Below are positions 2,930 through 50,795 of a stretch of 64,000 bases of DNA, piece by piece. Numbering within the stretch: position 1 is the stretch's first letter; each line of letters opens with the position of its first letter. The notes below the pieces were generated by a model. It saw nothing but the letters and a program-made list of their open reading frames with translations. It was not told the DNA's origin and made no database searches. This DNA comes from Herbidospora cretacea (GTDB lineage Bacteria; Actinomycetota; Actinomycetes; Streptosporangiales; Streptosporangiaceae): assembly GCF_001570605.1 (NCBI RefSeq), contig NZ_BBXG01000013.1:124001-188000 (forward strand). The letters are read 5' to 3'. The position numbers and the translations under genes were made by a program.

Positions 2930-3211
2930 AAGAGTTCTCCCTGGAGATGAATTCTGTGCGGTGCGTCAATTCGATTTCGGCCGCTATTGACGGGTCTTAC
3001 CAGCATCAGAGCTCGCGCGCGGTCATGTCAAGGCGCTCGCGCGGGGCGGTGATGGCAGCTAGCTACTGGCAACAAGGTGCCAGCACGCGATCGTGGCCCG
3101 CTGCGGGGAGCCGCCCGTAGGGTCGCAGTAACTTCCAGTGGTGACCATTTGAATAACGCTGGTGTCCATCGTTTTTCCCGTATGGATATTACGGCCAGAG
3201 GTGGCGCATTC
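2930..3211. promoter_or_regulatory. Divergent intergenic region upstream of the main PKS operon
   Basis: A 282-base non-coding stretch, less GC-rich than its surroundings, between the leftward membrane-protein gene and PKS A. It must hold promoters for both directions. Visible elements: the direct repeat GCTCGCGCG at 3011-3019 and 3035-3043, the inverted repeat CTGGCA-N6-TGCCAG at 3066-3083, a -35-like TTGACG near 2987, and the PKS A Shine-Dalgarno AGGTGG just before 3212. No confident -10 element was found, and no promoter is assigned exactly. Confidence 0.6.
3066..3083. repeat. Inverted repeat CTGGCA-N6-TGCCAG, possible operator
   Basis: Perfect 6-bp arms with a 6-base spacer, 129 bases upstream of the PKS A start codon. 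The arm length and spacing suit a dimeric helix-turn-helix regulator. No cognate regulator gene is in the window, so the assignment rests on symmetry and position only. Confidence 0.4.
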
Positions 3212-11567
<8,356 letters not shown>

Positions 11568-11578
<11 letters not shown>

Positions 11579-36100: not shown

Positions 36101-36329
36101 GCTGCTCGGCGTCAGCATCGTGGCCGCTCTGCGCCGCGAGTTCGCCCTCGCCGAGCTCCCGCCGCACATCTTGTACGAGGCGCCGACCGTGGCCGCGCTC
36201 GCCACGACCGTCGAGGCCCTCACCTCGGGACCCGCGCCGGGGACGGCGGGCGAGAACGGCGGCAGCCACGTCCGCGCCCAGCTCCGCCGGTCGGGCCTGG
36301 AGTCGTCGGCCTCCCGCCGGCGCCGATGA
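27156..36329 (+). CDS. PKS E: extension modules 5 and 6, KS-AT-KR-ACP twice
   Basis: 3057 residues from ATG 27156 (GAGG about 9 bases upstream); an in-frame GTG at 27141 overlapping the PKS D stop is an alternative. There is no N-terminal coiled coil. Module 5: KS ~11-430 (Cys183 in YCSTSL), AT ~528-830 (GYSLGE Ser640, HAFH His740), KR ~1152-1340 ([15 protein letters not shown]), ACP ~1395-1470 (Ser1434). Module 6: KS ~1504-1935 (Cys1674 in FCSTSL), AT ~2028-2330 (Ser2142, His2241), KR ~2668-2860 (Tyr2823 in DYCAAN), ACP ~2945-3020 (Ser2982, ELGGNSL). Neither module has DH or ER, so both should leave hydroxyl groups. The CSTSL ketosynthases and GGNSL carriers resemble PKS modules common in myxobacteria, cyanobacteria and PKS/NRPS hybrids. 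No thioesterase follows; the protein ends in a basic Ser/Arg tail. Confidence 0.95.
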   Translation: MRAEDVFDDEGTDIAIVGMSGRFPGASGVADLWTAIRAGRSGVTRFTDEELRAAGVPEDLLADPGYVKAGAVIDGVELFDAGFFGFSPKEAQILDPQHRLFLEHSWEALEDAGCDPTRFDGAIGVFGGSAWSSYLQNNLVPSEVSAVMGELAVGLANDKDSLTTRVSHTLGLSGPSYSVQSYCSTSLVAVCAAASSLAAFESDLALAGGVAVGVPQRVGYLYQQGGIAPPDGECRAFDADGLGAPLGSGVGVVALRRLEDALADGDQIYAVIRGWAVNNDAGRKVGFTAPGVQGQAAVMAEALAAAGLTPADIDYVEAHGTGTALGDAAELAALQQVFQGRNLLVGSVKPNVGHLDRAAGVTNLIKAALALRHGEIPPTRNLSTPNPQLSAGDARLDVVTALRAWPPATGRVRRAGVSAFGIGGTNAHVVLEEAPPVSRPRDTARPQLLIWSARSAKAADELTAGLADHLADTPDLRLGDVAHTLRAGRRVFEHRRFLVAATAEEAVAGMRDAGVLGRAESRADRPVAFLIPGTGEQYPGLAEDLYTTEPAFRAALDECRAILRTRMNGADPLEEMLRPRDTRSGGGLSALLGRESATSDALPTTLPTALLHPALFSVEYALATTLIGWGVTPSVLAGYSLGEYVAACLAGVLSLPDALALVAHRARLIDTLPEGAMSAVPLGAADLTARIARGGVAGIDVAAENGPDLTVVAGEPAAMEAVRALLAADGIPCRPLATGHAFHSRMMEPVRAELTDWIAANVELSGPRVPYVSNVTGELITEAQATDPGYWAEHMCAPVRFDAVLGTLLAQGDHALLELGPGQSLGAMVRAHRDCPRERWPLVVGTLPAAADPRPAGTVLAEALGRLWLAGAPIDWPGYQQDRPAAKVGLPTYPFQRERYWIDAPAGRPAEAPRLAADPEPDREHVQLLESRWAAEALPAETDTVGRHVLFADGAGVAEALAQALRADGGEVVTVRAGASFAEVPGGFTIDFASAADHVALARRLAEGGPSVVADLRLLDPGPDGPEGPDGRAVVPLARLLDAFGDDGGDRTRVVVATLGGQSVAPGEHADPAQAAAATLPIIGNQEYLALDCRGVDLDPRASAAGHADVLAAELRRTSADVLVAYRNGRRHVREFVPASASKVHTGVRPGGTYLITGGLGDVGLLVGEHLIRAGAGRLVLTSRSGPRGDGPDRLRALGAEVLTPRVDVTDAAAMRAMLAEVGRIDGVVHAAAETGPDTFLPLRDVTEAAVARHFGAKVTGARVLAEVLAGDEPDFCLLFSSTSSILGGIAFGSYSAANAALTALARRPGWLAASWDTWSVTLERLEGGMGATMAAHSMSAAESLAALDQVIAIGRPAVVVAAGGLADRLPKVAADVAAGPAHAAERFPRPELPQPYSPPLTGTERALAELWSEVLGVEPVGTRDNFFDLGGNSLVALQMLALVKKRFGVAVPTVLLFEAPTVHRLAAILDERGATASPAKPAPKPVVKPAPVAATRDDDDRRIAIVGMAGRFPGAGDVDAFWHNLRDGVESISFFSPDELRAAGVDEALIHDPAYVPARPVLDDIAGFDAQFFGISPRMAALTDPQQRLFLEVCWEALEHAGYGAPGHRGRVGVYGGANISTYLLHMGERLMREDEDVSHYEIIMGNDKDALTTTVSYLFDLHGPSVAVQTFCSTSLVATHLAVQSLRAGDCEMALAGGVSIRVPDKVGHVFGPGGMESPDGHVRTFDAQARGSMFGDGAAVVLLKRLSDAVRDGDHIWAVIRGSAMNNDGALKVGYTAPSVVGQARVIADAMADAGVTGEDISYVEAHGTATELGDPIEVAALTRAFGPTGETGYCPIGSVKTNVGHLDRAAGASGLIKTSYALTNQVIPASLHYTAPNPEIDFDNSPFYVNAELSPWRTRDGRPRIAGLNSLGMGGTNVHMVIEEAPARTASVEDAKGRRHQILPVSARNAVAAEEAARRLGEHLAAASGTRLADAAYTLQVGRKTFEHRKVVVATATADAARILTGEAAQDGLLSRVDTVQGRQTAFLFAGVGEQYPGMVTEIYEREPAFRAALDECLELLRGPLDGVDLPGLVAGGRGAADDLAVLLGRAEAGSGDGRAGTLRRTEIAQPALFAVEYALARTLMAWGVQPRLMLGYSLGEYVAACLAGVLSLPDAIALVAHRAALIGALPAGSMVAVSMPAEDLRRKFRLERRGLDLAAVNGPQVSVVAGPAEETERLVTELRRAEIPCRALETTHAFHSRMLQPVAGELTDWVKANIRLNPPELPYISNLTGELADADLVCDPGYWAEHMCGTVRFGKGVETLLADPELAVVEIGPGQSLGALVRGAGCPPKRWPLILHALPGASDRRPDDEALAGCLARLWLVGADLDWNAYHGRLPETGNQTGNAGLPGRIPLPTYPFQRRRYWTEGTPVAAGPKADRPAKPAGLDGGSIFDAITSLPKLPEEQWLHLPVWRQTAAPAPSADRPRSWLVFTREGAADEVTAELAATGATVIPVRPGEGYAATGDGRTVRPGSVADALALLRDLRAAGHGLDRVLHLWTLEPGGGTVEHGLHTLVALARAAGESGVDGWSLDIAVSGTQEVLPGEVRDPDGSTLIGPALVIPLEYPRVTTRFIDVDTPSGLVAELARPQTDRIVALRRGRRFLPGYETMATPDATPLRDGGVYLITGGLGGIALGLAERMARDVKAKLVLLARSGLSGRAEAARRVQAVRDLGGEVEIVVGDVSDPAAVKRAVDTAVERFGALHGVLHAAGLPAMGLMQFKRPSELDAVLAPKIAGTRALAEALRIGEPGEVELDFLALFSSITSATGGGPGQVDYCAANAYLDGYALRLAATGRKVVSIDWGEWTWNAWEAGLAGYDEGLQTFFKENRARVGIGFDEGYRSLLRALASGEPRVVVSTQDFETVVTGSALFNLEAVTAPATAGGGGDRHPRPELVTPYQEPSGPKEEAIAAIWGDALRLDRIGVLDNFFELGGNSLLGVSIVAALRREFALAELPPHILYEAPTVAALATTVEALTSGPAPGTAGENGGSHVRAQLRRSGLESSASRRRR

Positions 36330-36370: not shown

Positions 36371-37216
36371 ATGACACTTATCGGTGTGGTGGGCGCCGGC
36401 GTGATGGGCGTCGGCGTGGCCCAGAACCTGGCACAGACCGGCCACGACGTGGTCCTGGTCGACAAGGACGAGGAGATCCTCGCCGCGGCCCGCGCCACCA
36501 TCTGGCGCAACGCCAGGATGAGCCGCCTGATGGGCGGCCCGGCCCTGGACCCCGACGACGTGCTGTCCCGGATCACCACCGCGGTGGGCGCGGAGGCGGT
36601 CGCCAAGGCCGACGTCGTCATCGAGAACGTGACGGAGAACTGGGACGTCAAGCGGGCGGTCTACGAGACGATGGACGCGGTCTGCGGGCCGGACACCGTC
36701 TTCGTGGTCAACACCTCCGCGATCCCGATCACCAAGGTCGCCGCCGTCACCGGCCGCCCCGACAAGGTCGTCGGGGTCCACTTCATGAACCCGGTCCCGG
36801 CCAAGCCGGCGTGCGAGCTGATCCCCGGCTTCCACACCACCGCCGAGACCGTCGAGCGGGTCCGCGACCTGCTGTCGGCGATGGGCAAGAAGGCCATCGA
36901 CGTCAAGGACGCCTGCGGGTTCGTCTCCAACCGGGTCCTGATGCTCACCGTGAACGAGGCCGCGTTCCTCGTGCACGAGGGCGTCGCCACCGCCGAGTCG
37001 GTCGACGAGGTGTTCCGGAGCTGCTTCGGCCACCCGATGGGCCCGCTGGAGACGGCCGACCTCATCGGGGTCGACACCATCCTCTACAGCGTCGAGGTGC
37101 TCTACGAGCACTACGCCGACAGCAAGTACCGCCCCTGCCCGCTGCTCAAGCAGATGACCGACGCGGGCCTGCACGGCCGCAAGTCGGGCCGCGGTTTCTA
37201 CACCTACGCCAACTAA
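36371..37216 (+). CDS. fkbK: 3-hydroxyacyl-CoA dehydrogenase family enzyme for hydroxymalonyl-ACP (FkbK-like)
   Basis: 281 residues. N-terminal Rossmann GAGVMGVG; the 3HCDH signature VHFMNPVPAKPACELI follows near the middle; C-terminal helical domain with GRKSGRGFY. In FK520/ansamitocin-type pathways this enzyme oxidises the C3 hydroxyl of glyceryl-ACP with NAD(P)+ to the aldehyde. The next three genes encode the matching ACP, acyl-CoA dehydrogenase and FkbH, which supports the role. Start choice: ATG 36371 has GGAGAG immediately upstream. An in-frame ATG at 36326 forms an ATGA overlap with the PKS E stop and would add 15 residues. Confidence 0.9.
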   Translation: MTLIGVVGAGVMGVGVAQNLAQTGHDVVLVDKDEEILAAARATIWRNARMSRLMGGPALDPDDVLSRITTAVGAEAVAKADVVIENVTENWDVKRAVYETMDAVCGPDTVFVVNTSAIPITKVAAVTGRPDKVVGVHFMNPVPAKPACELIPGFHTTAETVERVRDLLSAMGKKAIDVKDACGFVSNRVLMLTVNEAAFLVHEGVATAESVDEVFRSCFGHPMGPLETADLIGVDTILYSVEVLYEHYADSKYRPCPLLKQMTDAGLHGRKSGRGFYTYAN

Positions 37217-37226
37217 GGAGTCAGAC

Positions 37227-37475
37227 ATGTCCGGCAACGCCAAGGAACAGATCCTCGACTTCGTCCGCGCCCGATACCCGCAGGCGGAGATCGACGAGAC
37301 CCAGGACATCTTCGCCCTGGGCTTCGTGAACTCGCTGTTCGCCATGGAACTGGTGATGTTCATCGAGAAGACGTTCGAGGTCACCATCCCCAACGACGAA
37401 CTGAAGATCGACAATTTCAGGTCCGCCAACACCATGGCGGAGCTGGTGGACCGGCTTTCGCCCGCGCGGGTCTGA
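37227..37475 (+). CDS. fkbJ: Discrete acyl carrier protein for the glyceryl/hydroxymalonyl unit (FkbJ-like)
   Basis: 82 residues with the phosphopantetheine site in DIFALGFVNSLFAMELV, where the Ser of NSL carries the arm. This variant of the usual DSL motif is typical of ACPs that hold glycerate-derived extender units. FkbH should load it with a glyceryl group; FkbK and FkbI then oxidise it. GGAG lies just after the FkbK stop, giving a 10-base gap, and the next gene begins one base after its stop. Modification is probably by the phosphopantetheinyl transferase encoded four genes downstream. Confidence 0.92.
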   Translation: MSGNAKEQILDFVRARYPQAEIDETQDIFALGFVNSLFAMELVMFIEKTFEVTIPNDELKIDNFRSANTMAELVDRLSPARV

Positions 37476-37476
37476 C

Positions 37477-38625
37477 ATGACGACCCTGGCTGAGACCGCG
37501 CCGGGCGCCCTTCAGGTCACCGACAGGAAGTCCGCCCGCGCGTTCGTCGACACCCACATCGTCCCGTACGCCGACGCGTACGACCGGCAGGGCCGGGTCC
37601 CCGAGGAGCTGCTGGAGCGGATGACCGCCGCCGGGCTCTGGGCCCCCTTCCTCCCCCGGGAGACCGGGGGAGGGGGGATGGACCTGGTCACCCTCGGCGA
37701 GGTCCACGAGGAGGTGGGCCGGGGCTGCTCCTCGGTGCGCAGCCTGCTCACCGTCCACACGATGGTGTCGTGGGCGGTGCAGCGGTGGGGCAGCCCGGCG
37801 CAGCGCGAACAGTGGGTGCCGGCGCTCGGCCGGGGAGACGTGCTCGCCGCGTTCTGCCTGTCCGAGCCCGGCGCCGGCAGCGACGCCTCCGGGATCGCCA
37901 CCAACGTCGTGGAGAAGAACGGCGGCTGGGTCCTCAACGGCGTCAAGAAGTGGATCACCAACGGCCAGCGGGCCGACCTCTTCCTGGTCTTCGCCCGCAC
38001 GGCCACCAGCATCGGCGCGTTCCTGGTCCCCAGGGACAGCCCCGGCGTCGAGGTGACGCCGATCGAGGACATGCTCGGCACCCGGGCGTCGATGATCGCG
38101 GAGATCTCCTTCCGCGACGTCGCGCTCGGCCCGGACGCGCTGCTCGGCCCGAGCGGCTTCACCGCCGGCATGGTGCTGACCGGCACCCTGGACCTCGGCC
38201 GCTACAGCGTGGCGACCGGCTCGGTCGGCATCATCCAGGCCGCGCTGGAGGCCTGCGCCGCCTACGCCTCCCGCCGCACCGTCGGCGGGTCGCTCCTCAA
38301 GGACCTGCCGCTGATCCAGGCGAAGCTCTCCGACATGGTCACCGACGCGCGGGCGGCCCGGCTGCTCGTCGCCGAGGCCGGCCGGCTCAAGGACGCCGGC
38401 GAGGCGTCCACGATCATGGCGACCTGGGTGGCGAAGTACTTCGCCTCCACCGCCGCCGCCCGGCACGCGTCCGAGGCGGTCCAGATCCACGGCGCGAACG
38501 GCTGCGGCCACGACTACCCGGTGGCACGGCTGTACCGGGACGCCAAGGTCATGGAGATCATCGAGGGCAGCAACGAGATCCAGCGCATCACCATCGCCAG
38601 CCAGGCAGAACGGGAGATCATCTGA
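37477..38625 (+). CDS. fkbI: Acyl-CoA dehydrogenase-family oxidase of the extender pathway (FkbI-like)
   Basis: 382 residues covering a whole acyl-CoA dehydrogenase: helical N-domain, FAD-binding central part with FCLSEPGAGSDASG, and C-terminal IIEGSNEIQR, where the Glu is the usual catalytic base. In methoxymalonyl-ACP pathways FkbI takes the ACP-bound aldehyde to the carboxylate, producing hydroxymalonyl-ACP. The ATG follows the ACP stop by one base and the TGA overlaps the next ATG, so it is translationally coupled on both sides. No O-methyltransferase (FkbG) gene is found in the window. Confidence 0.92.
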   Translation: MTTLAETAPGALQVTDRKSARAFVDTHIVPYADAYDRQGRVPEELLERMTAAGLWAPFLPRETGGGGMDLVTLGEVHEEVGRGCSSVRSLLTVHTMVSWAVQRWGSPAQREQWVPALGRGDVLAAFCLSEPGAGSDASGIATNVVEKNGGWVLNGVKKWITNGQRADLFLVFARTATSIGAFLVPRDSPGVEVTPIEDMLGTRASMIAEISFRDVALGPDALLGPSGFTAGMVLTGTLDLGRYSVATGSVGIIQAALEACAAYASRRTVGGSLLKDLPLIQAKLSDMVTDARAARLLVAEAGRLKDAGEASTIMATWVAKYFASTAAARHASEAVQIHGANGCGHDYPVARLYRDAKVMEIIEGSNEIQRITIASQAEREII

Positions 38626-39704
38626 TGACCGTGGTCGACGAAACGCCTCTTGTCGTCCCGGAGAAGCCCGTCCAGGGACGGATCAAGTGCGTGGTCTGGG
38701 ACCTGGACAACACGCTCTGGGACGGCGTGCTGCTGGAGGACGGCGAGGTCACCCTGCGGCCCGCGGTGGCGGCGCACATCCACCGGCTCGACCAGATGGG
38801 CGTGCTGCACTCGATCGCCAGCAAGAACGACCATGACGCCGCCTGGGAGAAGCTGCGCGAGTTCGGCCTCGACGAGATGTTCCTGCACCCGCAGATCAAC
38901 TGGAACGCCAAGTCAGAGTCCGTCGCGCGCATCGCCAAGGCGCTCAACCTCGGGCTCGACGCGTTCGCCTTCGTCGACGACCAGGAGTTCGAACGCGGCG
39001 AGGTCGGCCACGGCCTGCCCGCCGTCACCCTGGTCGACGTCGTCGACCTGGAGGAGGCGCTGGCCCGGCCGGAGTTCATCCCCCGCTTCGTCACCGACGA
39101 GTCGGCCCAGCGCCGCCCCATGTACCAGGCGCAGGCCGCGCGGGACGACCTGGAGTCGGGCTTCGTCGGCACCAACGAGGAGTTCCTGGCCGGGCTGGAG
39201 ATGCGGTTCACCATCGCCCCCGCCGTGCGGGACGACCTCCAGCGGGCCGAGGAGCTGACCGTCCGCACCAACCAGCTCAACTCGACCGGCCGCACCTACT
39301 CCTACGAGGAGCTCGACGAGCTGCGCGAGTCCCCCGACCACCTGCTGCTGGTCGCCTCCCTGACCGACCGGTTCGGCAGCTACGGCAAGATCGGCCTGGC
39401 CCTGGTGGAGAAGGGCGAGAAGGTGTGGCGGCTCAACATGATGCTGATGTCCTGCCGGGTGATGTCCCGCGGCGTCGGCATGGTGCTGCTCAACCACATC
39501 ATGCGGCTGGCCCAGGCGGCCGGGGTGAGCGTGCGCGCCGACTTCGTGGAGACCGGCCGCAACCGGATGATGCAGATCACCTACGCCTTCGCCGGGTTCC
39601 GCGAGGTCGGCAGGGACGGCGTCCACGTGGTGCTGGAGGCCGACCTGAGCACCGTCCAGCCGCCACCGCCCTACGTCCACTTGGAGATCGTCGATGAGCT
39701 TTGA
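38625..39704 (+). CDS. fkbH: FkbH-like glyceryl-ACP synthase/phosphatase (HAD superfamily)
   Basis: 359 residues. HAD motif I DLDNTLW begins at Asp26; motif II region IASKND and motif III FVDD follow; a GNAT-like C-terminal half contains GSYGKIGLALVEK and the conserved MMLMSCRVMSRGVG. FkbH-type enzymes capture 1,3-bisphosphoglycerate, dephosphorylate it and transfer the glyceryl group to a dedicated ACP, starting methoxy- or hydroxymalonyl-ACP synthesis. It lies directly after the FkbK, FkbJ and FkbI homologues, sharing one base with FkbI and overlapping the thioesterase by 11. The presence of a free ACP gene argues for extender rather than starter supply. Confidence 0.95.
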   Translation: MTVVDETPLVVPEKPVQGRIKCVVWDLDNTLWDGVLLEDGEVTLRPAVAAHIHRLDQMGVLHSIASKNDHDAAWEKLREFGLDEMFLHPQINWNAKSESVARIAKALNLGLDAFAFVDDQEFERGEVGHGLPAVTLVDVVDLEEALARPEFIPRFVTDESAQRRPMYQAQAARDDLESGFVGTNEEFLAGLEMRFTIAPAVRDDLQRAEELTVRTNQLNSTGRTYSYEELDELRESPDHLLLVASLTDRFGSYGKIGLALVEKGEKVWRLNMMLMSCRVMSRGVGMVLLNHIMRLAQAAGVSVRADFVETGRNRMMQITYAFAGFREVGRDGVHVVLEADLSTVQPPPPYVHLEIVDEL

Positions 39705-40473
39705 CGACGCGGCGTCCCGGTGGATGCCGTTCGCGGGCCAGACCGGCGCCGGCCCCGGCGCGCTCGCGCTCTACTGCCTGCCGCACGCCGGTGGCGCCGC
39801 CTCCACCTTCCGGAGCTGGCAGCGCGTCCTGCCGGGGGTGGCGGTCCAGCCCATCCAGCTCCCGGGCCGGGACAGCAGGCTGAGAGAGCCCGCCTACGAC
39901 CGGATGGGCCCGCTGGTCTCCGACCTCGCCGAGATCGTCCAGGCGGACGTCTCGCTCGGCTCGATCGACCGCAGGTACGCCCTGTACGGCCACAGCCTCG
40001 GCGCGCTCGTCGCGTTCGAGCTGGCCCGTGAGATCCGCCGCCGCGGTGGCCCGCCGCCGGTGCACCTGTTCGTCTCCGGTTCGGTCGCCCCGCAGCTCGC
40101 CTACGAGGACGGCAAGCCGGTCGGGCAGATGTCCCGGCCCGAGGTCGTCTCGATGCTGCGCGACCTGGGCGGCACGCCGGAGTGGCTGCTGGCCGACCCC
40201 GGCGTGCTGGACATGATCCTCCCGGCCGTGGTCGCCGACTTCACGATCAAGGAGACCTACGAGTACCGCGCGGAGAAGCCGCTGGACATCCCCATCACGG
40301 CCATGCCCAGCACCGACGACGCGCGGATCAAGGCCGAGACCGTGACGCCGTGGGGGGAGCAGACCACCAGGGAGTACGAGCTCCAGCCGTTCGTCGGCGG
40401 CCACTTCGCGGTGTTCGAGCAGGCCGCGCTGGTCCACAAGCTGATCTCCAAAGCCCTGCTCAAATGGATGTGA
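39694..40473 (+). CDS. Type II (editing) thioesterase
   Basis: 259 residues, alpha/beta hydrolase of the external thioesterase type found in PKS/NRPS clusters. Motifs: LPHAGGAAS oxyanion loop near residue 30, GHSLGA with the nucleophile Ser, and a C-terminal GGHFAVFE carrying the catalytic His. Such enzymes clear blocked carrier domains by removing wrong acyl groups. As a discrete protein it is not expected to macrocyclise the product, although it could assist release, since no PKS here has its own thioesterase. It overlaps FkbH by 11 bases and the phosphopantetheinyl transferase by 10. Confidence 0.93.
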   Translation: MSFDDAASRWMPFAGQTGAGPGALALYCLPHAGGAASTFRSWQRVLPGVAVQPIQLPGRDSRLREPAYDRMGPLVSDLAEIVQADVSLGSIDRRYALYGHSLGALVAFELAREIRRRGGPPPVHLFVSGSVAPQLAYEDGKPVGQMSRPEVVSMLRDLGGTPEWLLADPGVLDMILPAVVADFTIKETYEYRAEKPLDIPITAMPSTDDARIKAETVTPWGEQTTREYELQPFVGGHFAVFEQAALVHKLISKALLKWM

Positions 40474-41081: not shown

Positions 41082-42242
41082 TCACGACCGTTGGGACACC
41101 GGCACCACGTACCGGTTGAACACCAGGTCGCGCAGCACGTCGTCACCGCCCTCCACGATCGACACGTACCGCACGTCCCGCAGCAGCTTGCCGATCACCG
41201 AGTCGTGCGTGTACCCCACGCCGCCGAACATCTCCGACGCGGCCGAGGCGATCTGCCAGCCCGTCTGGCCGCAGAACATCTTCGTGGTCAGCGCCGTCTT
41301 CAGCGTGCCCACCCGGAGGAACTCCGCGGCCGCGTCCGGCCGGGCCGCGATCTCGTCGTAGCGGCGGGCCGCGGCCAGGCACTGGTTCGCCATCACGTCG
41401 ATCTGCATCTCGAACTGGCCCAGCTTGGCCGCGAACACCGCGTTCCCGGCCAGGACGGCGCCCTTGACCTGCTTGGTCCTGCCGTACTCCAGGCACACGT
41501 CCCGGATCCGGCGGGCGACGCCGAGCGCCGTGGTGGCGATGAGGATGCGGCTGGCGTTCAGCCCCACCTCCAGCAGCCGCAGCCCGTTGCCGCGCAGCAC
41601 GTTGGCGGCCGGCACCCGGCAGTCGGTCAGCGTCACCTGGTAGGTCGCCGAGGAGCGCAGCCCCAGCACGTCCCAGCGCTTGTCGATCCGGATGCCCGGC
41701 GTGTCCCGGGGGACCAGCACCGCCAGGTAGCCGGCCGGGTCGTGCTCGGCGCGGGCGACCACGACCAGGAACTCGGCGAAGTCGGCGTTCGTGGAGAACG
41801 CCTTCTCCCCGTTCAGCACGACGTCGTCGCCGTCGCGGCGGGCCGTCGTGGTGATCCTGGCCAGCTCGCTGCCGGCGGCGTGCTCGCTGCCGAGCGTCGC
41901 GCAGAACCCGCTCCCGGCCACCAGTTTGCCCAGGTAGTGGTCCCGCAGGTCGGGGGAGCCGTACAGGGAGACCATGCTGGTGGTCAGGACCGGGATGAAC
42001 AGGGTGAACGCGGCGCCGGCGTCGGCGTAGGCGAGTTCGGCGACGATCCGCACGCCGTCCTCCAGGCTGAGGCCGGGGCCGCCGTGCTCCTTCGGCACCC
42101 ACCAGTTCGCCAGACCGGTGTCGGCGAACCGCTCGTACAGCGGGAGCGGCGCCTCGGCCAGCGAGTCGAGGTAGGCGTCCTTGCCGATGAGTTCCCTGCG
42201 CGCGAACGCCTGGACCGCCCGCACGTGCTCCGGCTGCCTCAT
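41082..42242 (-). CDS. Acyl-CoA dehydrogenase-family flavoprotein, second copy in the cluster
   Basis: 386 residues. FAD-binding region [15 protein letters not shown] and [17 protein letters not shown] in the middle; C-terminal [20 protein letters not shown] and [12 protein letters not shown], where Glu is the likely base. It is clearly distinct from the FkbI-like enzyme. It is last in the leftward operon, and its ATG overlaps the stop of the AT-lacking PKS G by four bases, so its action is probably tied to that module's product or extender. Options are oxidation of a carrier-bound extender, alpha,beta-desaturation of the chain, or a tailoring oxidation; the sequence does not decide. Confidence 0.88.
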
Positions 42243-45200
42243 TCGGTCTCCCGTTCGTCGAGCAGCTCGGCCAGGAGGCGCACCGTCGGGCACTCCAGCA
42301 GTCCCGTCACCGGGACCGACGCGTTCAGGGTCTTGCGGATCCTGGTGGTCAGCTCGATCGCGAGGAGCGAGTGGCCGCCCAGCTCGAAGAAGTTGTCGGT
42401 GGCGCCGATCGGCTCGATGCCCAGCACCCGCGACCAGATGTCGGCGAGCGCCTTCTCGGTGCCCTCCCTCGGTTCCACGTAGGGGTTGTTGAGGTCGGGT
42501 CTCGGGTGGCGTTCCTGGTCGTCGGGGGTGTCGTCGGCGCCGTGGATGTCGCCGGTGACCCACTGCGCCAGCCGGCCCTCCAGCGGACCGGTCGAGATGA
42601 CCAGGTGGCCGACCCGGTCGATGGCCGCCAGGGCCCGCTCGAGGACGTCGACGCCTTCGGCCGGGGCCATCGCGAAGCCGACGACGGCCTCGCTGTGGCC
42701 TTCCAGACGGGTGGCGTCGATGCTCCAGGTGTCCCAGTCGACGGTCACCCAGCGCGCGCCGCCCGCCACCCGGGACTGCCGGATGTAGGCGTCCAGCGCC
42801 GCGTTGGCCGCCGCGTACGGCGCGAGCGTCATGCCGCCCAGCACCGCCGCGATGGACGACAGCGTGATCCGCCGGTCGGCTGCGTGCCCGCCGAGCACCT
42901 TCTCCAGCACGTGGAAGCCCTTGACCTTGGTGGCCAAGTGGGCGTCGCACTGGGCGCGGTCCATCAGGTGGGCGAAGTTGAAGTACGCCCCGTCCTGCAC
43001 GCCCGCGCCGTGCACGACCACGTCGATCCCGCCGAACCGCTCGACCGCGGCCTCGACCACGGCCGCCATCCGCTCCTCGTCCGCCACGTCGGCGGACAGG
43101 CAGAGCACGGTCGCGCCCCGGCGCTCCAGGTCCAGGATGTTGTGGATGTGCCGGGCGGTGCGCTCCCCGCCGGGGGGCGTCTGCGCCAGGAACGCCTCCC
43201 ACTCCTCGCGGGGCGGCAGCGGCGACCGGGCGGTGAGGACCAGGTTGCAGCCGTACGCGGCGGCCAGGTGCCGGGAGAGCACGAGGCCGACGTCGCCGAG
43301 GCCGCCGGTGATCAGCACGGTCTCGCCGTTCCTGATCGGGCGGGTCTCGTCGGTCAGCTCCTCGGTCGGGAACGGGTCGTAGGCCCGCACCCAGGTCTCG
43401 CCGGCGCGGACCGCGACCGGGCCCTCGTGCGGGGCCAGGATCGCGGCCAGGATCTGGACGGCGTCGCCGACTGGGTGGCCGGCGGCGTCGACGTCGATGG
43501 TGCGGGCCCGGATCCGGGGGTTCTCCTGGGCCAGGCTGGGGGCCAGCGCCGCCAGCGTGGAGTGCTCCGGGTGGCGCAGGTCCGAGCCGAGCACGCCGAC
43601 CGCCCCCGAGGTGAGCAGGGCGAGCTCGGCGCGCGGCGCGGAACCGCTGTTGTCGACCAGTTCCCTGGCCAGCGCCAGCACGGAGTAGAAGCCGCGGCGC
43701 TGCTCGGCGTCGAAGTGGGCGGACGGGTCGTGACCCGGTCCGGGCTCGGCCGCGGCCAGGCTGAAGCCGTGGACGATCGCGCGGGGCGCGACCAGCAGCG
43801 AGTACATCAGCTCGGCCATGTCGTCGGGCTTGTCCAGCCGGACGGTGAAGTTCCCGGCGTCGTCCTGGTCGAAGCTCTCGCCGCTGCGGACCGCCGTGAC
43901 CTCGGCGCCCGCCGCGTCCAGCCGGTCGATCAGCGCCTCGCCCCGGGCGTCGTCGGCGAAGACCAGCCAGGGACCGGCCGCCCGCAGCCGCTCGTCCAGG
44001 TCGGCGACCGCGAACGGCCGCTGCCGCCAGGTGGGCAGGTACGTCCACTTCGACCGGTCGAAGGTCTTGTCGTTGCTCACCGGGGCGGCCTGCGCGTTCG
44101 GGGTGGCCTTCACCCAGTAGCGGCGCTTCTGCCACGGGTAGGTGGGCAGCTCGACCCTGCGGCCCGCGCCCCGGTGCAGCGCGGTCCAGTCGATCGCGCT
44201 GCCGGCCTGCCACAGCCGGGCCAGCGTGGCCAGCAGCCACTCGGCCGCGGGCACTCCGTCGGCGGGGGCGACGGCGATCTCCTCCGACGTCTGGCCGTTG
44301 TCCTCGCGTGACACCTGCACGCCGAGCCGCCGCAGCCCGTCGGCCAGCGCGCCGACCGCGTCGTGCCGGTCGGTGCCGTCCTCGATGCCGATCACGGCGT
44401 CGACCGCCGCGAGCAGCTCCGGCCACCAGGATTCCGGCACGCCCTCCGGCGTGACCAGGCGCACCTTGGGGTTGCGGCGCTGGGTCTTGGCGTTGATCCA
44501 GCGGGAGGGGTCGGTCAGCGCCACGACCGCGTCGTCGCGGTCGGTGACCACGACCGCGCGCCGCAGCGCGAACCCGCCGCGCGACATCTGCAACGTGAAC
44601 GCGACGTCCGCGATGTCCTCGCCGGAGTCGGCGGCCAGGTGACCGGCCAGGCGCTCGCCGAGTTCGTTCAGCGCGTTCTCGTCGCCCGCCGAGAACGTCA
44701 GCAGGTGCGGGCCCGGCCGGTGGGGGAGGACCGGGCGCGGCGGCGCCTGCTCCAGCACCACGTGCGCGTTGGTCCCGCCGAGGCCGAACGAGCTGACCCC
44801 GGCCCGGCGCGGGTGCGGGCCCTCCGGCCACGGCCGGTGCTCGGTCAGCACGGTGAAGCGGTCCTGCGCGGTGGCCAGCGCCGGGTTCGGCTGGGCGTAG
44901 TCCGGCACGCCCTGGAGCAGCTCGTGCTTGAGGCTCAGCGCGGCCCGCATCAGCCCGGTCACGCCGGAGGCCCGGTCGAGGTGGCCCAGGCTCGGCTTCA
45001 GCGAACCGAGCACGGCCGGGGTCTCGCGCGGCTGGGTGAACACCCGGTTCATCGCGGCCAGCTCGATCGAGTCGCCCAGCATGGTGCCGGTGGCGTGGCA
45101 CTCGACGTAGCCGATGGTGTCGGGTTTGACCCCGGCCACGCCGAGGGCCGTCTCGATCACGTCGGCCTGGCCGTCGACGCCCGGGGCGGTGTAACCGGCC

Positions 45201-46036
45201 CGCATCCGGCCGTCGTTGTTGGAGGCCGAGCCGAGAATGACGGCGTGGATCACGTCGCCGTCGGCGAGCGCGTCGGACATGCGCTTGAGCGCCACCGTGC
45301 CGACGCCGCTGCCCATCACGGTGCCGCCCGCCTCGGCGTCGAAGCTGCGGACCTTCCCGTCGGGCGACATGATGCCGCCCTGCTCGTACAGGTAACCGGC
45401 CGGCTGGGGGAGCGGCGTGAACGCGCCGCCCGCCAGCGCCATGTCGCACTCGTAGGTGAGCAGGCTCTGGCACGCCAGGTGCACCGCCACCAGCGACGTC
45501 GAGCAGAACGTCTGCACCGACACCGCCGGGCCGCGCAGCCCCAGCTTGTACGACACCAGGTTCGCCAGCGAGTCGCGCTCGTTGCCGATCGCCATCAGCA
45601 TCGCGCCGCCCGGCGCGCCCGCCAGGTGGAAGATGTTCTTCACCACGTAGTCGGGGAACCCGCACCCGCCGAACACCGCGACCTGTCCCGGCACGTCGGT
45701 GGGGCAGTAGCCGGCGCCCTCCAGCGCCTCCCACGAGCACTCCAGGAACAGCCGGTGCTGCGGGTCCATCATCTCGGCCTCGCGCGGGTTGATCCCGAAG
45801 ACCCCCGCGTCGAAGTGCTCCAGGCCGTTCAGCGGGCCGCCGATCCGCACGTAGCGCGGGTCGGCGATCTGGCCCGGCTCGACGCCGTTCTCGCGCAGCT
45901 CCTCGTCGGTGATCTCGCGCAGTCCCTTGATCCCGGACAGTACGTTCCGCCACAGGTCGGCGACGCTGTCGGCGCCCGGGAAACGACCGGACATGCCGAT
46001 CAGCGCCACCGCCGAGGCGTAGTCGGTTTCTGTCAT
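42239..46036 (-). CDS. PKS G: module 8, KS-[AT missing]-KR-ACP
   Basis: 1265 residues; ATG overlaps the PKS F stop by four bases. KS ~9-428 has Cys178 in FCSTSL and both catalytic His contexts (ECHATGT, LGHLD), so it looks functional. From residue 430 to the post-AT motif LPTYPWQ (~629) only about 200 residues remain, against about 450 in PKS F. The KS-AT linker and the post-AT segment survive, but the AT core is gone: no GxSxGE and no HAFH. KR ~906-1105 (TGGLGDVG; Tyr1074 in PYAAAN) and ACP ~1185-1255 (Ser1223 in ELGGHSL) follow. There is no docking tail and no thioesterase, so this is probably the last module. Loading must come from an AT in trans, a neighbour's AT, or a pre-formed ACP-bound extender; or the module may pass the chain without extension. 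Confidence 0.93.
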
Positions 46037-49000
46037 GACGTCCTTCCGCTCCGGAGCATGTTCCGCCGCTGTTCGATGCGCGAGGTGCGCTGCTGTTCGC
46101 GCACGTCGGCCGTCTGCTCTTCCTTGGCCTCGCCCGCGGTGGCCGCTTCGGCGAGCGACGAGATCGTGGGCGACTGGTAGAGGATGTGCGGGGGGAGGTA
46201 GGTCAGGCCGAGCGCCTTCCGGACCTCCGTGATGATCTCCATGCCGAGCAGCGAGTTGCCGCCCAGCTCGAAGAAGTTGTCGTGGACGCCGACCGACTCC
46301 AGGCCGAGCGCCTCGGTCCACACCTCGGCGATCTTCTCCTCGGCCTCGTTCTGCGGCTCCACGAACGCGGTCGACAGGTCCGGCCTGGGGTGCCGGCCGA
46401 AGGCGTCCCTGAGCTTCTTGACCGTCGCCTGGTGGCTCTCGATCGAGGACTTGCGGCTCATCGCGACCAGCGGCGCGAAGTCCTGCGTGGAGGCGACCAC
46501 GTGCCGCTCGCCGCTGTTCAGCACCCGGACGAGGGTCTCGAAGCCGTCCTCGAAGCTGAGCCCGAACAGGCCCCGGTACCAGGTGAAGTACTGCTTGGAG
46601 CCCTCGTCGTAGTTCTCCAGGCCCTCCGTCCAGCCGTTCCAGGTCCACTCGCACCAGTCGACCGAGGTGACCAGCGCGCCGGGCAGCGGGTCGCTGAGCG
46701 CGAAGGAGTCCAGGAACGCGTTGGCCGCGCAGTAGTCGACCTGCCCGGCGCCGCCGCCGGTGGCGGAGGTGGTGGAGGAGTAGAGGGCGAGGAAGTCGAC
46801 CGGCACGTCCTTCAGCACCTCGGCCAGGGCCAGCGAACCGGCCACCTTCGGGGCGAGCGTGCGCTCGATGTCGGCCACGGTCTTGAACTGCATCAGGCCG
46901 ACGGCGGGCACGCCCGCGCAGTGCAGGACGCCGTTGAGCCCGCCGAAGTGCTCGATCGCCGCGTCGACGGCCCGGCGCACGTCCGCGACCTTGGACACGT
47001 CTCCGGCCACCGTGACGACCCCGACGCCGGCCGCCTCCAGCCGGCGCAGCCCCTCGACGCGCCGCCGCACCTCGTCGGCGGTGCCGGGGGCGGCCAGGAT
47101 CTGGTTCCACTGGTCCTTCGGCGGGACGGCGGTGCGCCCCATGAGGACCAGGTTGGCCTGGTACTTCCCGGCCAGCAGCTCGGCCATGCCCAGGCCGATG
47201 CCGCCCAGGCCGCCGGTCACCAGGTACGTCCCGCCGCGCCGCACGTCCACGACCGGGTCGGTCCTGTCGATGTTGGCGGCGTCCAGCACCTCGTAGCCCG
47301 GCGTCCAGCGGCGGCCCTCGCGCAGCGCGACGACCTGGTCGTTGGGGTCGGCCCGCAGCTCGGCCAGCAGCCCGCGCAGGGCGGCCGGTCCGGTGCCGGC
47401 GTCGATGTCGATGAGGCGGGTCTTGACCCTCGGGTACTCGACGGGGATGAGCCGGGTCGGGCCGAGCAGCGTGTTGCGCTCGGGGATGACGTCGTCGCCG
47501 GTCAGCACCTTCTGGCTGCCGACGGTGACGATGTCCAGCGCCCAGGCCGGCAGGCCGAGGTCGACGGCGGCCCTGGCGAAGGAGACCAGCGTGTACAGGC
47601 CGCGCTTCAGGCACTCCTGGGTGGCGTCGCCTTCGGCGGGGGCCGGGTCGGCGGTCCACAGGTGCACGACCCGCTCCGGCGTGAATTCACGGCCGCCGAG
47701 CGTCCGCAGGGCGGCGACGACGTCGTCCTGCGAGCCGGGGCGGATGACGAAGCCGTTTGGGGTCTCGGCGTAGGCGTCGCCGGGCCGGACCAGGACGACC
47801 TCGTGGCCGAGCGCGTCCAGCGCGGCGCGGACCGATCCGGTCAGCGTGTCGGCCAGGCCCGCGTCGGTGAAGAGCAGCCACTTGGTCTGCTCCTCCGCGC
47901 GGACGAGCTGCGGCGCGGTCTGCCGCCACACGGGGACGTTGATCCACCGCTCGTCCGGCAGGCGCGGCAGCGCGGTCGCGATGCTGGTGGGGTCGCTCTC
48001 GTCCAGCAGCGGCACGCCGGGCGTCAGCGCCGACTGGTCGATCTCCAGCCAGTAGTCCTGGCGGTCGAAGGGGTAGGTCGGCAGCGGGACCCGGCCGGGC
48101 GTCCAGCCGTCGTGCAGGGCGTCCCAGTCGATCGGGACCCCGGCCAGCCAGAGCTTGGCGACGGCGGTCGCGGTGGCGGCGAGCGTCTCCACCTGGTCGC
48201 CCTGGCCGGGCAGGGTGGTGACGATCAGCGGCCACTGGTTGCGGTCGCAGTCGGGGTGGCCGCGGGTCAGCGCGCCGAGCGACTGCCCGGGGCCGATCTC
48301 GGTCAGCGTCAGGTCGCCGCCGCGCAGCACGTGCGCGAGCCCGGCGCCGAACTCGACCGTCTCGCACATGTGGCGGGCCCAGTAGCCGGGGTCGGTGACG
48401 AGCTCGGCGGTGGCGATCTCGCCGGTGACGTTGCTGACGTACGGGATGGACGGCGGGTTCAGCGTCACGTTGGCGCTGATCCAGGAGGTCAGCTCGGCCG
48501 CGACCGGTTCGAGCATCCGGGAGTGGAAGGCGTGCGTGGTCTGGAGGCGGCGGCAGCCGATCTCCGCCGCCCGCAGCCGCGCGGCGGCGGCCTCGACGCT
48601 CTCCTCCGGCCCGGCCAGCACGAGCTGCGAGCCGGTGCGGACCGCGACGTCGAGGCCGAGGTCGCCGAGCACCGCCTTCAGCCGCTTCTCGTCGGCGGCG
48701 ACGGCCAGCATGCCGCCCTCCGGCTGGGAGGTGATCAGCTTCGCCCGGTAGGCGACCAGCTTGAGCGCGTCGGCCAGCGACAGCACCCCGGACAGGCAGG
48801 CCGCGACGTACTCGCCGAGGCTGTAGCCGACCATGATCTCCGGCTTGACGCCCCAGCTCATCAGCAGCCGGGCCAGCGCGTACTCGGCGACGAAGACGGC
48901 GGGCTGGATGAGGTGCGCGTTCGGGGTCGAGCGCGGGGAGGCGTCCCCGGTCCGCCCGAGCAGCGCGGCCAGGTCGGGGGCGGTCGCGGGCCCGGCCGGG

Positions 49001-50754
49001 ACGAAGACGTCGGACAGCTGGGAGGCCTCGGTGAGGCCCAGCAGGCTGACGCACTCGTCCACGTCCGCCCGGAAGGCGGGCTCCTCCTCGTACAGGGCGG
49101 CGACCATGCCCGGGTACTGCTCGCCGACGCCGGCGATCAGGAACCCGGTCTTGCGGCCGACGGCCGTGTCGGTGCGGCCCAGCGGCCCGGCCGGGTCGGC
49201 GAGCAGCGCGGCGGCCCTGGCGTTGCCGTCGGCGACGATGACCTTGCGGTGGTTGAAGACCTTGCGGCCCTTCTGGAGGGTGTAGGCGACGTCGCCCAGG
49301 TCCAGGCCGGGGTCGGCGGCGACGCGCTCGCCCAGGCGGGCCGCCATCGCCTCGGCGGCGGCGGCCGACCGGGCCGACACCGGGAGGATCTGCCAGCGGC
49401 GGGGCCGCTCCCGGCGCTCGGCCGGGACGGGGGCCTCGACGATGATCGCGTGCGCGTTCGTGCCGCCCATGCCGAGCGAGCTGATCCCGGCGATGCGCGG
49501 CCGGTCGGCGCTGCGCGGCCAGGGGGTGGGCTGGGACGTGACGTAGAACGGGCTGGCCTCGAAGTCGATCTCGGGGTTCGGCGAGGTGTAGTGGAGCGTC
49601 CCGGGGATCAGCTCGTGCCGCAGCGACTGGACGACCTTGATCAGGCCGGTCGCGCCGGAGGCGCGGTCGAGGTGGCCGACGTTCGGCTTGATCGAGCCGA
49701 GGATGCAGTACTGCTTCTTCTCCGTCTGGCCGAACGCCCTGGTCAGGGCCGCGACCTCCATCGGGTCGCCGACCTCGGTGGCGGTGCCGTGCGCCTCGAC
49801 GTAGGAGATCTGCGACGGCTCGATGCCCGCCTTCTCGATCGCCTTGGACACGCAGCGGCGCTGGCCGTCGATGCTGGGGGCCAGGTAGCTGAACTTCATC
49901 GCGCCGTCGTTGTTGATCGTGGAGGCGCGGATCACCGCGAGCACGGTGTCCCGGTCCTCGATCGCCCTGCCCAGGCGCTTCAGCGCGACCACGGCCGCGC
50001 CGTCGCCGAACATGCTGCCGCGGCCCTGCGCGTCGAAGGTCCGCACATGGCCGTCGGGCGACTCCTGGCCGCCCTCCTCCCACAGGTAGCCGGTCCGATC
50101 GGGGATGCGGACCGACACGCCGCCCGCCAGCGCCATGTCGCACTCGTCCCGGCGCAGCGCCTCGCTCGCCAGGTGGACCGCGACCAGCGAGGTCGAGCAG
50201 AACGTCTGCACGGTCACGCTCGGCCCGGACAGGTCCAGCCGGAACGACACGTTCGTGGCCAGCGAGTCCTTGTCGTTGCCGATCATCAGCGCGGACGTGT
50301 CGATGCCCATGGCGAACGCCTGCAGCCGGGTCAGCAGGTAGCCGCTGATGTTCATGCCGGCGAACACGCCGACCGAGCCGCGGCTCTCCGGCGAGCCGTA
50401 CCCGGCCGACTCCAGGACCTCCCACACGCATTCGAGGAAGAGCCGCTGCTGCGGATCGGCCAGCGTGGCCTCGCGCGGGTTGTAGCCGAAGAACGCCGCG
50501 TCGAATCCGCGGATCTCGTCGAGAATCGGCCGGCTCCGGACGTAGTTCGGTTTCGAGAACGTCGCCGCCGGCACGCCCGCCTCGATCAGTTCCTCATCCG
50601 AGAAACGCGTGAAGGATTCGACCCCGGTGCTGATGTTCCGCCAGAACGTTTCGACGTCATTGGCTCCCGGGAATCGACCGGCCATGCCGATGATCGCAAT
50701 ATCGGACTCGTCCGCGGGGTATTGCGAGTCACCAGGTGGATGTTGCTGAGTCAT
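46033..50754 (-). CDS. PKS F: module 7, KS-AT-KR-ACP
   Basis: 1573 residues. The start is set at ATG 50754 because AGGGG sits about 8 bases upstream; ATG 50760 and GTG 50772 are in-frame alternatives with poorer spacing. Domains: KS ~22-440 (Cys186 in FCSTSL), AT ~535-835 (GYSLGE Ser645; HAFH His741; LLGR insertion), KR ~1174-1380 (TGGLGGIG; Tyr1341 in DYCAAN), ACP ~1462-1535 (Ser1501 in ELGGNSL). The tail is basic (RRNMLRSG), like that of PKS E. The module is closely related in layout and sequence to the second module of PKS E, so it probably follows E in the assembly line. No DH or ER is present, so a hydroxyl is expected. It is third in the leftward operon, 42 bases after the exporter permease. 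Confidence 0.95.
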
Positions 50755-50795
50755 CAACATGCCCCTATTCACCGAATTTTTAGGTGGGAATTCTT

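Follow-up and report, generated by a model that had tools for sequence, protein, structure and literature searches.

An acyltransferase-less terminal module in a butyrolactol-type polyketide synthase line of Herbidospora cretacea, probably charged in trans by sibling acyltransferases

How does a polyketide synthase (PKS) module work after its acyltransferase (AT) has been lost? PKS G raises this question. It is encoded in a 64,000-nucleotide stretch of the Herbidospora cretacea genome (RefSeq GCF_001570605.1, contig NZ_BBXG01000013.1, positions 124,001 to 188,000), hereafter the window. A first-pass annotation of the window had noted that PKS G lacks an AT, and had suggested that its ketosynthase (KS) accepts an unusual extender directly, that an AT acts in trans, or that the module does not extend. 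Our analysis indicates that the AT of G was lost from an AT-bearing ancestor. G is probably functional, carrying out the last extension in a polyol line of the butyrolactol type, and sibling modules most likely supply the ATs that transfer hydroxymalonyl in trans to its acyl carrier protein (ACP).

PKS G lacks an acyltransferase but is otherwise complete

PKS G is encoded by one intact open frame, with its ATG at 46036 and its stop codon ending at 42239, and its start overlaps the end of PKS F by 4 bases (Table 1). The interval highlighted by the first-pass annotation, 44110-44760, corresponds to residues 426-643. The distance between the GGTNAH and LPTYPW motifs is 210 residues in G versus 461 in F and 467 and 483 in the two E modules. 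Pfam recognizes two KS halves, the KS C-terminal extension, KS-AT linker models, a Rossmann-like stretch, the ketoreductase (KR) and the PP-binding domain in G, with no Acyl_transf_1 match at E<=0.1; the same model scores 131 bits in F. A motif search of the G sequence found neither GxSxGE nor a YASH/HAFH-type motif. The active-site motifs of the remaining domains are retained (KS Cys178/His314/His352; KR Ser/Tyr/Asn; ACP LGGHSL). The first-pass annotation was thus right about the missing AT, the coordinates and distances, and the preserved surroundings and catalytic residues. The G ACP is 37-49% identical to the ACPs of D, E and F and 27-28% identical to those of B and C (the ACPs of A were outside this comparison).

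For the region left at the AT site, an AlphaFold2 model of residues 425-652, built from 24 sequences, served for a Foldseek fold search; a model of residues 1-652 with 12 alignment rows gave a poor KS (mean predicted local distance difference test score (pLDDT) 46.8) and was set aside for that purpose. The 425-652 model is a compact alpha/beta unit (mean pLDDT 74.6, predicted TM-score 0.76, means over 10-residue blocks of 72-95 across local residues 71-200), and by this prediction the remaining stretch is more than a loose linker. Its top PDB match is OzmQ KS1 (4oqj; E 4.9e-10, TM 0.56 by model length), but with a root-mean-square deviation (rmsd) of 9.1; OzmQ belongs to another line, that of oxazolomycin, which is presumably served by discrete ATs. 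The sequence profile of the remnant also aligns to 4oqj over nearly its whole length (1-227 of 233), second after 7zma. Several KS-AT structures rank lower, with the zwittermicin AT ZmaA-AT (4qbu) at rank 10 (E 5.8e-5). As 4qbu contains both AT linkers, we do not take this match as a hidden AT, although the Foldseek result leaves the matching residues of the model unspecified. The model reads as the KS-AT linker and the post-AT linker closed over a vestige, not as a disguised AT; details of the vestige are uncertain and should not be relied on because the best match reaches only TM 0.56 with an rmsd of 9.1. The first-pass annotation had proposed this modelling and had named an intact AT fold with alternative catalytic residues as the outcome that would overturn its claim; no such fold appears in the model. 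A hidden AT of that kind was rejected: the spacer has 80 residues and varies in length, and the modelled unit falls far short of the length of an AT.

The AT-less architecture is conserved

A scan of the genome collection yielded 75 loci from the best 80 of 257 matches. Of these, 31 (L034-L064) are actinomycete loci carrying a G homologue, from the genera Herbidospora, Nonomuraea, Planobispora, Planomonospora, Acrocarpospora, Microbispora, Sphaerisporangium, Actinokineospora and Labedaea and from a Catenulisporales metagenome-assembled genome. GxSxGE was not seen in the frames of any of the 31, among which L058 is broken and L061 and L064 are partial; family counts refer to the other 28, which are full-length. 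In 28/28 the gap between the KS end and the post-AT motif measures 173-250 residues, both AT motifs are missing from it, and the Cys and His motifs of the KS are retained, as is the ACP Ser. Mean identity to G is 89% for the KS, 90% for the ACP and 85% for the KR. The ACP does not fall below 56% identity, and LGGHSL occurs in G, in 28/28 homologues and in A18, the counterpart from Streptantibioticus cattleyicolor, where it is the last module of a PKS cluster on the megaplasmid. The spacer, residues 509-588, is the least conserved stretch of G (mean identity 63%, minimum 27.5%); it is length-variable and nearly absent in A18.

The window comes from a draft genome of 36 contigs, which invites the explanation that the gap is a sequencing or assembly artefact. 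Assembly error is excluded because all 28 full-length homologues, which stem from other records, are built in the same way, and tables of a Herbidospora study (PMC4599437) list KS/KR/ACP proteins of 1261-1265 aa in five type strains; we give this explanation practically no credence.

Matches to the G profile occur in 5/394 genomes of a class-wide sample (source genome included), in which no additional butyrolactol-type counterpart was found, and in 19/200 genomes of a family sample, one of them (G562) over the KS only. The usual gene order is ABC transporter, F, G and a second acyl-CoA dehydrogenase homologue (ACAD2), with a phosphopantetheinyl transferase-like gene, thioesterase (TE), FkbH, ACAD1, ACP and 3-hydroxyacyl-CoA dehydrogenase homologue (HBDH) on the opposite strand. 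F and G are not adjacent in L056, L057 and L064, and in Actinokineospora the extender cassette lies farther from G, past the first flank, yet in the same cluster.

The AT was lost from a cis-AT module

The origin of the gap was traced with a maximum-likelihood KS tree (quick mode, midpoint root, Shimodaira-Hasegawa-like approximate likelihood ratio test (SH-aLRT) support only). It used 98 of 103 rows; two rows of <400 aa were dropped, as were three hits that duplicate G entries (L053, L056 and L057). A tip was labelled AT-bearing if an AT motif was found no more than 330 residues from the KS, so that some AT-less labels elsewhere in the tree may be false. G, its homologues and A18 form one clade (SH-aLRT 99), whose sister is a module with a GYSLGE AT from Tengunoibacter, of the Chloroflexota (99). 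The G KS falls with those of E, F and the AT-bearing Tengunoibacter modules and is separate from the main AT-less Bacillus/Paenibacillus clades, which we take to be trans-AT lines. Since the sister still bears an AT, the AT of G was lost from a cis-AT module, and the tree supports descent of G from an AT-bearing cis-AT ancestor, as the first-pass annotation had supposed. Most simply, a single loss would have preceded the separation of the Streptosporangiaceae, Pseudonocardiaceae and Streptomycetaceae versions. Among the top PDB hits of whole G by phmmer are the KSs of OzmN and OzmQ, which counts against a placement outside the trans-AT lines. Descent from a trans-AT line was nevertheless rejected on the basis of the tree. 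Trans-AT systems have AT-less modules that share a cluster-encoded discrete AT and KSs that fall in the trans-AT KS clade; here D, E1, E2, F and A-C keep their ATs (by motif or Pfam), and the G KS lies outside that clade.

Tengunoibacter tsumagoiensis encodes two bimodular PKSs (L065:548-19387) that are related to the polyol modules and whose four ATs all read GYSLGE; no match to an FkbH-type set was found near them within the 24.6 kb read.

A18 has 1154 aa, is 49% identical to G, has 138 residues between the KS-end and post-AT motifs and lacks nearly the whole spacer. In the same S. cattleyicolor line, module 2 of A16 (pSCATT, L109:422-10747), the counterpart of D, has a decayed AT with GHGVGE in place of GxSxGE and the HAFH part missing. 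Because A18 has no AT and that of A16 module 2 is decayed, AT decay has struck this polyol line at least twice, and only two ATs that are live by motif, those of A17, remain for its four polyol modules. The first-pass description of G as an isolated AT-less module therefore holds for the window but goes too far for the family, where an AT-less last module recurs. The remaining groupings follow the same correspondence, with E1 paired to A17 module 1 (100), A17 module 2 in one group with E2 and F (98), and D in one with A16 module 2 (99).

Comparison with butyrolactol identifies a candidate extender

The closest system with published labelling is the butyrolactol A PKS of Streptomyces sp. TP-A0882 (PMC5355916, PMC5932044), in which, by the published tables, an AT-less single-module PKS likewise ends a polyol line directly before HBDH-ACP-ACAD-FkbH-TE. 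As reported in the available part of PMC5355916, 13C feeding showed C1-C8 to be four intact glucose-derived pairs without acetate label, assigned to hydroxymalonyl-ACP, and C9 to come from propionate; its gene table places the 1,169 aa PKS 10-18 directly before HBDH, ACP, ACAD, FkbH and TE and names no gene as a discrete AT. The domain listing in PMC5932044 gives KS/AT/DH/ER/KR/ACP-KS/KR/ACP for 10-16 (DH, dehydratase; ER, enoylreductase), two KS/AT/KR/ACP modules for 10-17 and KS/DH/KR/ACP for 10-18. Counted from these tables, 11 extension modules face 11 units (6 malonyl, 1 methylmalonyl and 4 hydroxymalonyl). Read colinearly, this would imply that C1-C2 come from 10-18 and C7-C8 from 10-16 module 2, in each case with hydroxymalonyl as the unit and no AT listed for the module. 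By analogy, an AT-less terminal module such as G would extend with hydroxymalonyl. Like butyrolactol, the Herbidospora line has an AT-less KS-KR-ACP as its last module, a position deduced from gene order.

S. cattleyicolor provides the bridge, its order A16-A17-A18-HBDH-ACP-ACAD-FkbH-TE being that of the butyrolactol genes; kinship with G was examined through A18 and not through 10-18 itself. The AT of A16 module 1, at the position where methylmalonyl is expected, carries GHSQGE and YASH, consistent with the colinear reading. The two lines also differ. Butyrolactol contains four hydroxymalonyl units whereas the Herbidospora line has five predicted polyol modules, F being an extra E2-type module; the upstream modules are different, and the S. 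cattleyicolor counterpart has no adjoining ACAD2. A further butyrolactol-like line, t1pks-5 of Streptomyces sp. N11-34 (PMC8880029), ends in a KS/KR/ACP protein according to its table entry, to which this comparison is confined.

The cluster itself is very probably pks-1 of Herbidospora. Table 2 of PMC4599437, printed in 2015, lists for H. cretacea NBRC 15474 a 1265 aa KS/KR/ACP protein, s14-orf135, together with PKSs of 2788, 1807, 1800, 1567, 3057 and 1573 aa; these sizes fit G and A-F, with A and F read from a later start codon than that of the longest frame. The chain predicted in that paper has conjugated double bonds and several hydroxyls. It was derived from malonyl and methylmalonyl, unlike ours; hydroxymalonyl is nowhere mentioned in its text, and its section 10 makes no comment on the missing AT.

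Sibling ATs as probable donors of hydroxymalonyl

The genes presumed to make the extender, HBDH, ACP, ACAD and FkbH, all lie near G by homology, and no O-methyltransferase is among them (none was searched for elsewhere). All four polyol ATs (D, E1, E2 and F) carry GYSLGE, as opposed to GHSxGE in the two ATs of A and those of B and C, and both A17 ATs of S. cattleyicolor are also GYS[LV]GE. In the part of PMC4207774 available to us, the ATs of ZmaA (hydroxymalonyl-ACP) and ZmaF (aminomalonyl-ACP) are of the GYS[LV]GE type and five CoA-using ATs of the GHSxG type. The F AT is closely related to ZmaA-AT, a hydroxymalonyl-ACP transferase with the same GYS signature and its third-best PDB relative by phmmer (E 2.8e-52). 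By their signatures, the D, E1, E2 and F ATs would be the natural source of hydroxymalonyl for G. In the proposed route, the G ACP would be charged in trans by sibling ATs that take the extender from its carrier protein, with the AT of F and that of the second E module as the likeliest donors; the G KS would then extend the chain, and the KR would reduce the beta-keto group before release.

Actinokineospora offers the cleanest case for such loading. Its cluster combines an AT-less G, the extender cassette and D/E1/E2/F modules that are all GYSLGE, and no short AT frame was found on the cluster contig. Of two short AT frames elsewhere in that genome, one is FabD-sized (322 aa) and the other continues a large PKS.

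Several observations weigh against loading by siblings. The assignment of units to butyrolactol modules is our own colinear reading, which the portions of the papers available to us do not state, and 10-18 is known as a table entry only, with a listed DH. The KSs of A18, A16 module 2 and A17 module 1 were flagged for unusual composition in the tree. The MXW-like position of ACP-using ATs is only partly matched: D, E1, E2 and F read ACR, PCR, PCR and GCR, so that at this MXW-versus-RXR site, with positions assigned by eye, the first residue is non-basic (A, P, P, G) and the third stays R. Sibling ATs would also need to reach the ACP of another subunit, whereas ZmaA-AT is part of the PKS it serves and hands its unit to a downstream ACP (PMC4207774). 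Of the four lineages compared that lack the discrete AT orthologue described below, three have shortened spacer helices (Actinokineospora, Labedaea and S. cattleyicolor, the last counted from the 43 kb read) and the fourth, Sphaerisporangium, keeps them; a docking role of the spacer for the discrete AT would also explain this shortening. Labedaea and Sphaerisporangium moreover have other short AT frames off the G contig.

Alternative explanations

The first-pass annotation had advised a search for a discrete AT near the cluster, and one exists, in a separate type II-like cassette. The source genome gives 59 Acyl_transf_1 matches, of which two stand alone in short frames (C13:109469-110164 and C3:72009-72827); the C13 gene (C13:109457-110362; L032:5451-6362) lies ~55 kb from G on the same contig. 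That this AT, or the C3 AT, which resembles housekeeping FabD, loads G, then probably with malonyl, is in our view unlikely, though its genomic linkage is the strongest result against loading by siblings. Searches for the discrete AT and ACAD2 covered the genomes behind 28 of the 31 G loci (those of L042, L061 and L064 apart), and orthologues of the C13 AT (75-95%) were found in 25/28. In 13/25 the orthologue shares a contig with ACAD2 at 53-58.5 kb, the other 12 being on separate contigs. Among the 200 family genomes, 16 hold both a C13-type AT and a G match, and one (G572) the AT without G. Three others match the G profile but lack the AT: G503, G448 (a 74% complete genome in which the match is split) and G562 (where the match covers the KS part only). 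Homologues from AT-holding genomes also keep spacer helices able to dock an AT. This linkage loses force, however, because the AT has a cassette of its own, because that set recurs in G572, because its kinship is to FabD and DisD, and because three G genomes lack the orthologue. In 5/5 neighbourhoods read of the 25, the AT sits with genes for a short-chain dehydrogenase/reductase (SDR), an ACP, GcvT, KS/KS and a SnoaL-like protein, and the same SDR-to-SnoaL set occurs in G572 without a G match at E<=1e-200. Actinokineospora, Labedaea and Sphaerisporangium (3/28) lack the orthologue, yet all three have an AT-less G. The best PDB relatives of the C13 AT are malonyl-CoA transacylases and DisD, and its motifs are GHSVGE and KVV, as in S. 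coelicolor FabD. We therefore rejected the discrete AT as the default loader on the grounds of its own cassette and its absence from those three genomes. An AT acting in trans is the best supported of the three options raised at the outset, with the siblings D, E1, E2 and F as likelier donors than the discrete enzyme.

Could the module dispense with loading altogether? If the G KS condensed the chain directly with hydroxymalonyl on the discrete ACP (37227-37475), AT loss would be costless, and the cassette for an ACP-bound extender is at hand in this cluster and has homologues in the same clusters elsewhere. The G ACP is, however, among the best conserved domains of the protein, which is unexpected if it is bypassed, and we know of no modular PKS shown to extend directly from a discrete extender-ACP without an AT. 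We regard this route as improbable: of the earlier proposal of an unusual extender, the hydroxymalonyl unit gains support from butyrolactol, and its direct, AT-free use does not. Should it nevertheless hold, an extender already bound to an ACP would need no transacylation, and it would be hydroxymalonyl modules specifically that tolerate the loss of their AT. Less probable still is that G does not extend and either hands the chain over or acts as a KR/ACP platform, perhaps together with ACAD2. Other lines contain AT-less KS units whose sole role is to transfer the chain, and ACAD2 adjoins G in 29/31 loci. The conserved KS Cys-His-His, KR and ACP motifs speak against this, as does the S. cattleyicolor counterpart, beside which no ACAD2 was seen; the butyrolactol count, moreover, requires every module to extend, and this disfavours the third option of the first-pass annotation.

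Other genes of the region

Table 1 Features of PKS G, its sibling modules and the presumed hydroxymalonyl-ACP cassette (positions in the window)
Feature	Position	Strand	Basis or remark
PKS G, KS-(no AT)-KR-ACP, 1265 aa	42239..46036	minus	Pfam, motifs
KS of G, residues 8-426	44759..46015	minus	Cys178, His314, His352 present
KS-AT linker domain of G, residues 430-508	44513..44749	minus	CurL-like_PKS_C, RhiE-like_linker; mean identity 75% over 28 homologues
Vestige/spacer at AT site of G, residues 509-588	44273..44512	minus	Conservation, length comparison
C-terminal AT edge and post-AT linker of G, residues 589-645	44102..44272	minus	[12 protein letters not shown]
KR of G, residues 906-1105	42722..43321	minus	Pfam, motifs
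ACP of G, residues 1196-1259	42260..42451	minus	Pfam; Ser in LGGHSL
PKS F, KS-AT-KR-ACP	46033..50772	minus	Pfam; directly upstream of G
AT of F, GYSLGE/HAFH	48283..49143	minus	Pfam, motif, phmmer
PKS D, KS-AT-KR-ACP, AT GYSLGE/HAFH	22441..27144	plus	Pfam, motif
PKS E, two KS-AT-KR-ACP modules (E1, E2), both ATs GYSLGE/HAFH	27156..36329	plus	Pfam, motif
HBDH homologue, presumed hydroxymalonyl-ACP cassette	36371..37216	plus	
Discrete ACP of cassette	37227..37475	plus	
Acyl-CoA dehydrogenase homologue ACAD1 of cassette	37477..38625	plus	
FkbH-domain protein of cassette	38622..39698	plus	TIGR01686, 293.8 bits
Discrete thioesterase-like protein	39694..40473	plus	By eye and place in butyrolactol gene order; no NCBIfam match
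Second acyl-CoA dehydrogenase homologue ACAD2	41082..42242	minus	Directly downstream of G

ACAD2 was detected in 27/28 of the G genomes searched. The two loci in which it does not follow G are that of Sphaerisporangium (L057) and L064, which ends inside G.

In the loading KS of PKS A (3077-11578), Gln replaces the active-site Cys ([11 protein letters not shown] type), and the accompanying AT carries GHSQGE/YASH, which suggests a propionate-type starter. Upstream of the PKS genes (1-960, 992-2371 and L032:16218-19758) lie a pyridoxal phosphate (PLP)-dependent decarboxylase, two condensation-domain-like proteins, a carrier protein and an AMP-binding enzyme. The decarboxylase has an exosortase-associated family as its best NCBIfam model, and the protein at 992-2371 is named from a partial match to a non-ribosomal peptide synthetase model. 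These genes are possibly a set for attaching an amine or amino acid.

The type II-like cassette adjoins the polyol cluster (L031:16110-20002, L032:1-7614; C13:100.1-111.6 kb) and comprises a monooxygenase, an SDR, an ACP, a GcvT-like protein, a KS/KS-like protein of 744 aa, the discrete AT and a SnoaL-like protein. It recurs in the five other neighbourhoods read, with the monooxygenase well seen in 3/5.

Implications

The AT-less architecture itself is already in print, in three tables. The open-licence literature searched, mostly at listing level, yielded no work that connects the absent AT with the butyrolactol labelling and with loading by siblings. The family offers a natural and conserved example where ATs embedded in a cis-AT line probably act on a module to which they do not belong, with the extender arriving on a carrier protein. 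Cross-module sharing of ATs becomes directly testable here, with one AT-less and several AT-bearing modules in the same line. Such loading would explain how butyrolactol-type antifungals acquire four hydroxymalonyl units with fewer working ATs, and would offer a natural template for adding hydroxylated units to polyketides without an AT swap.

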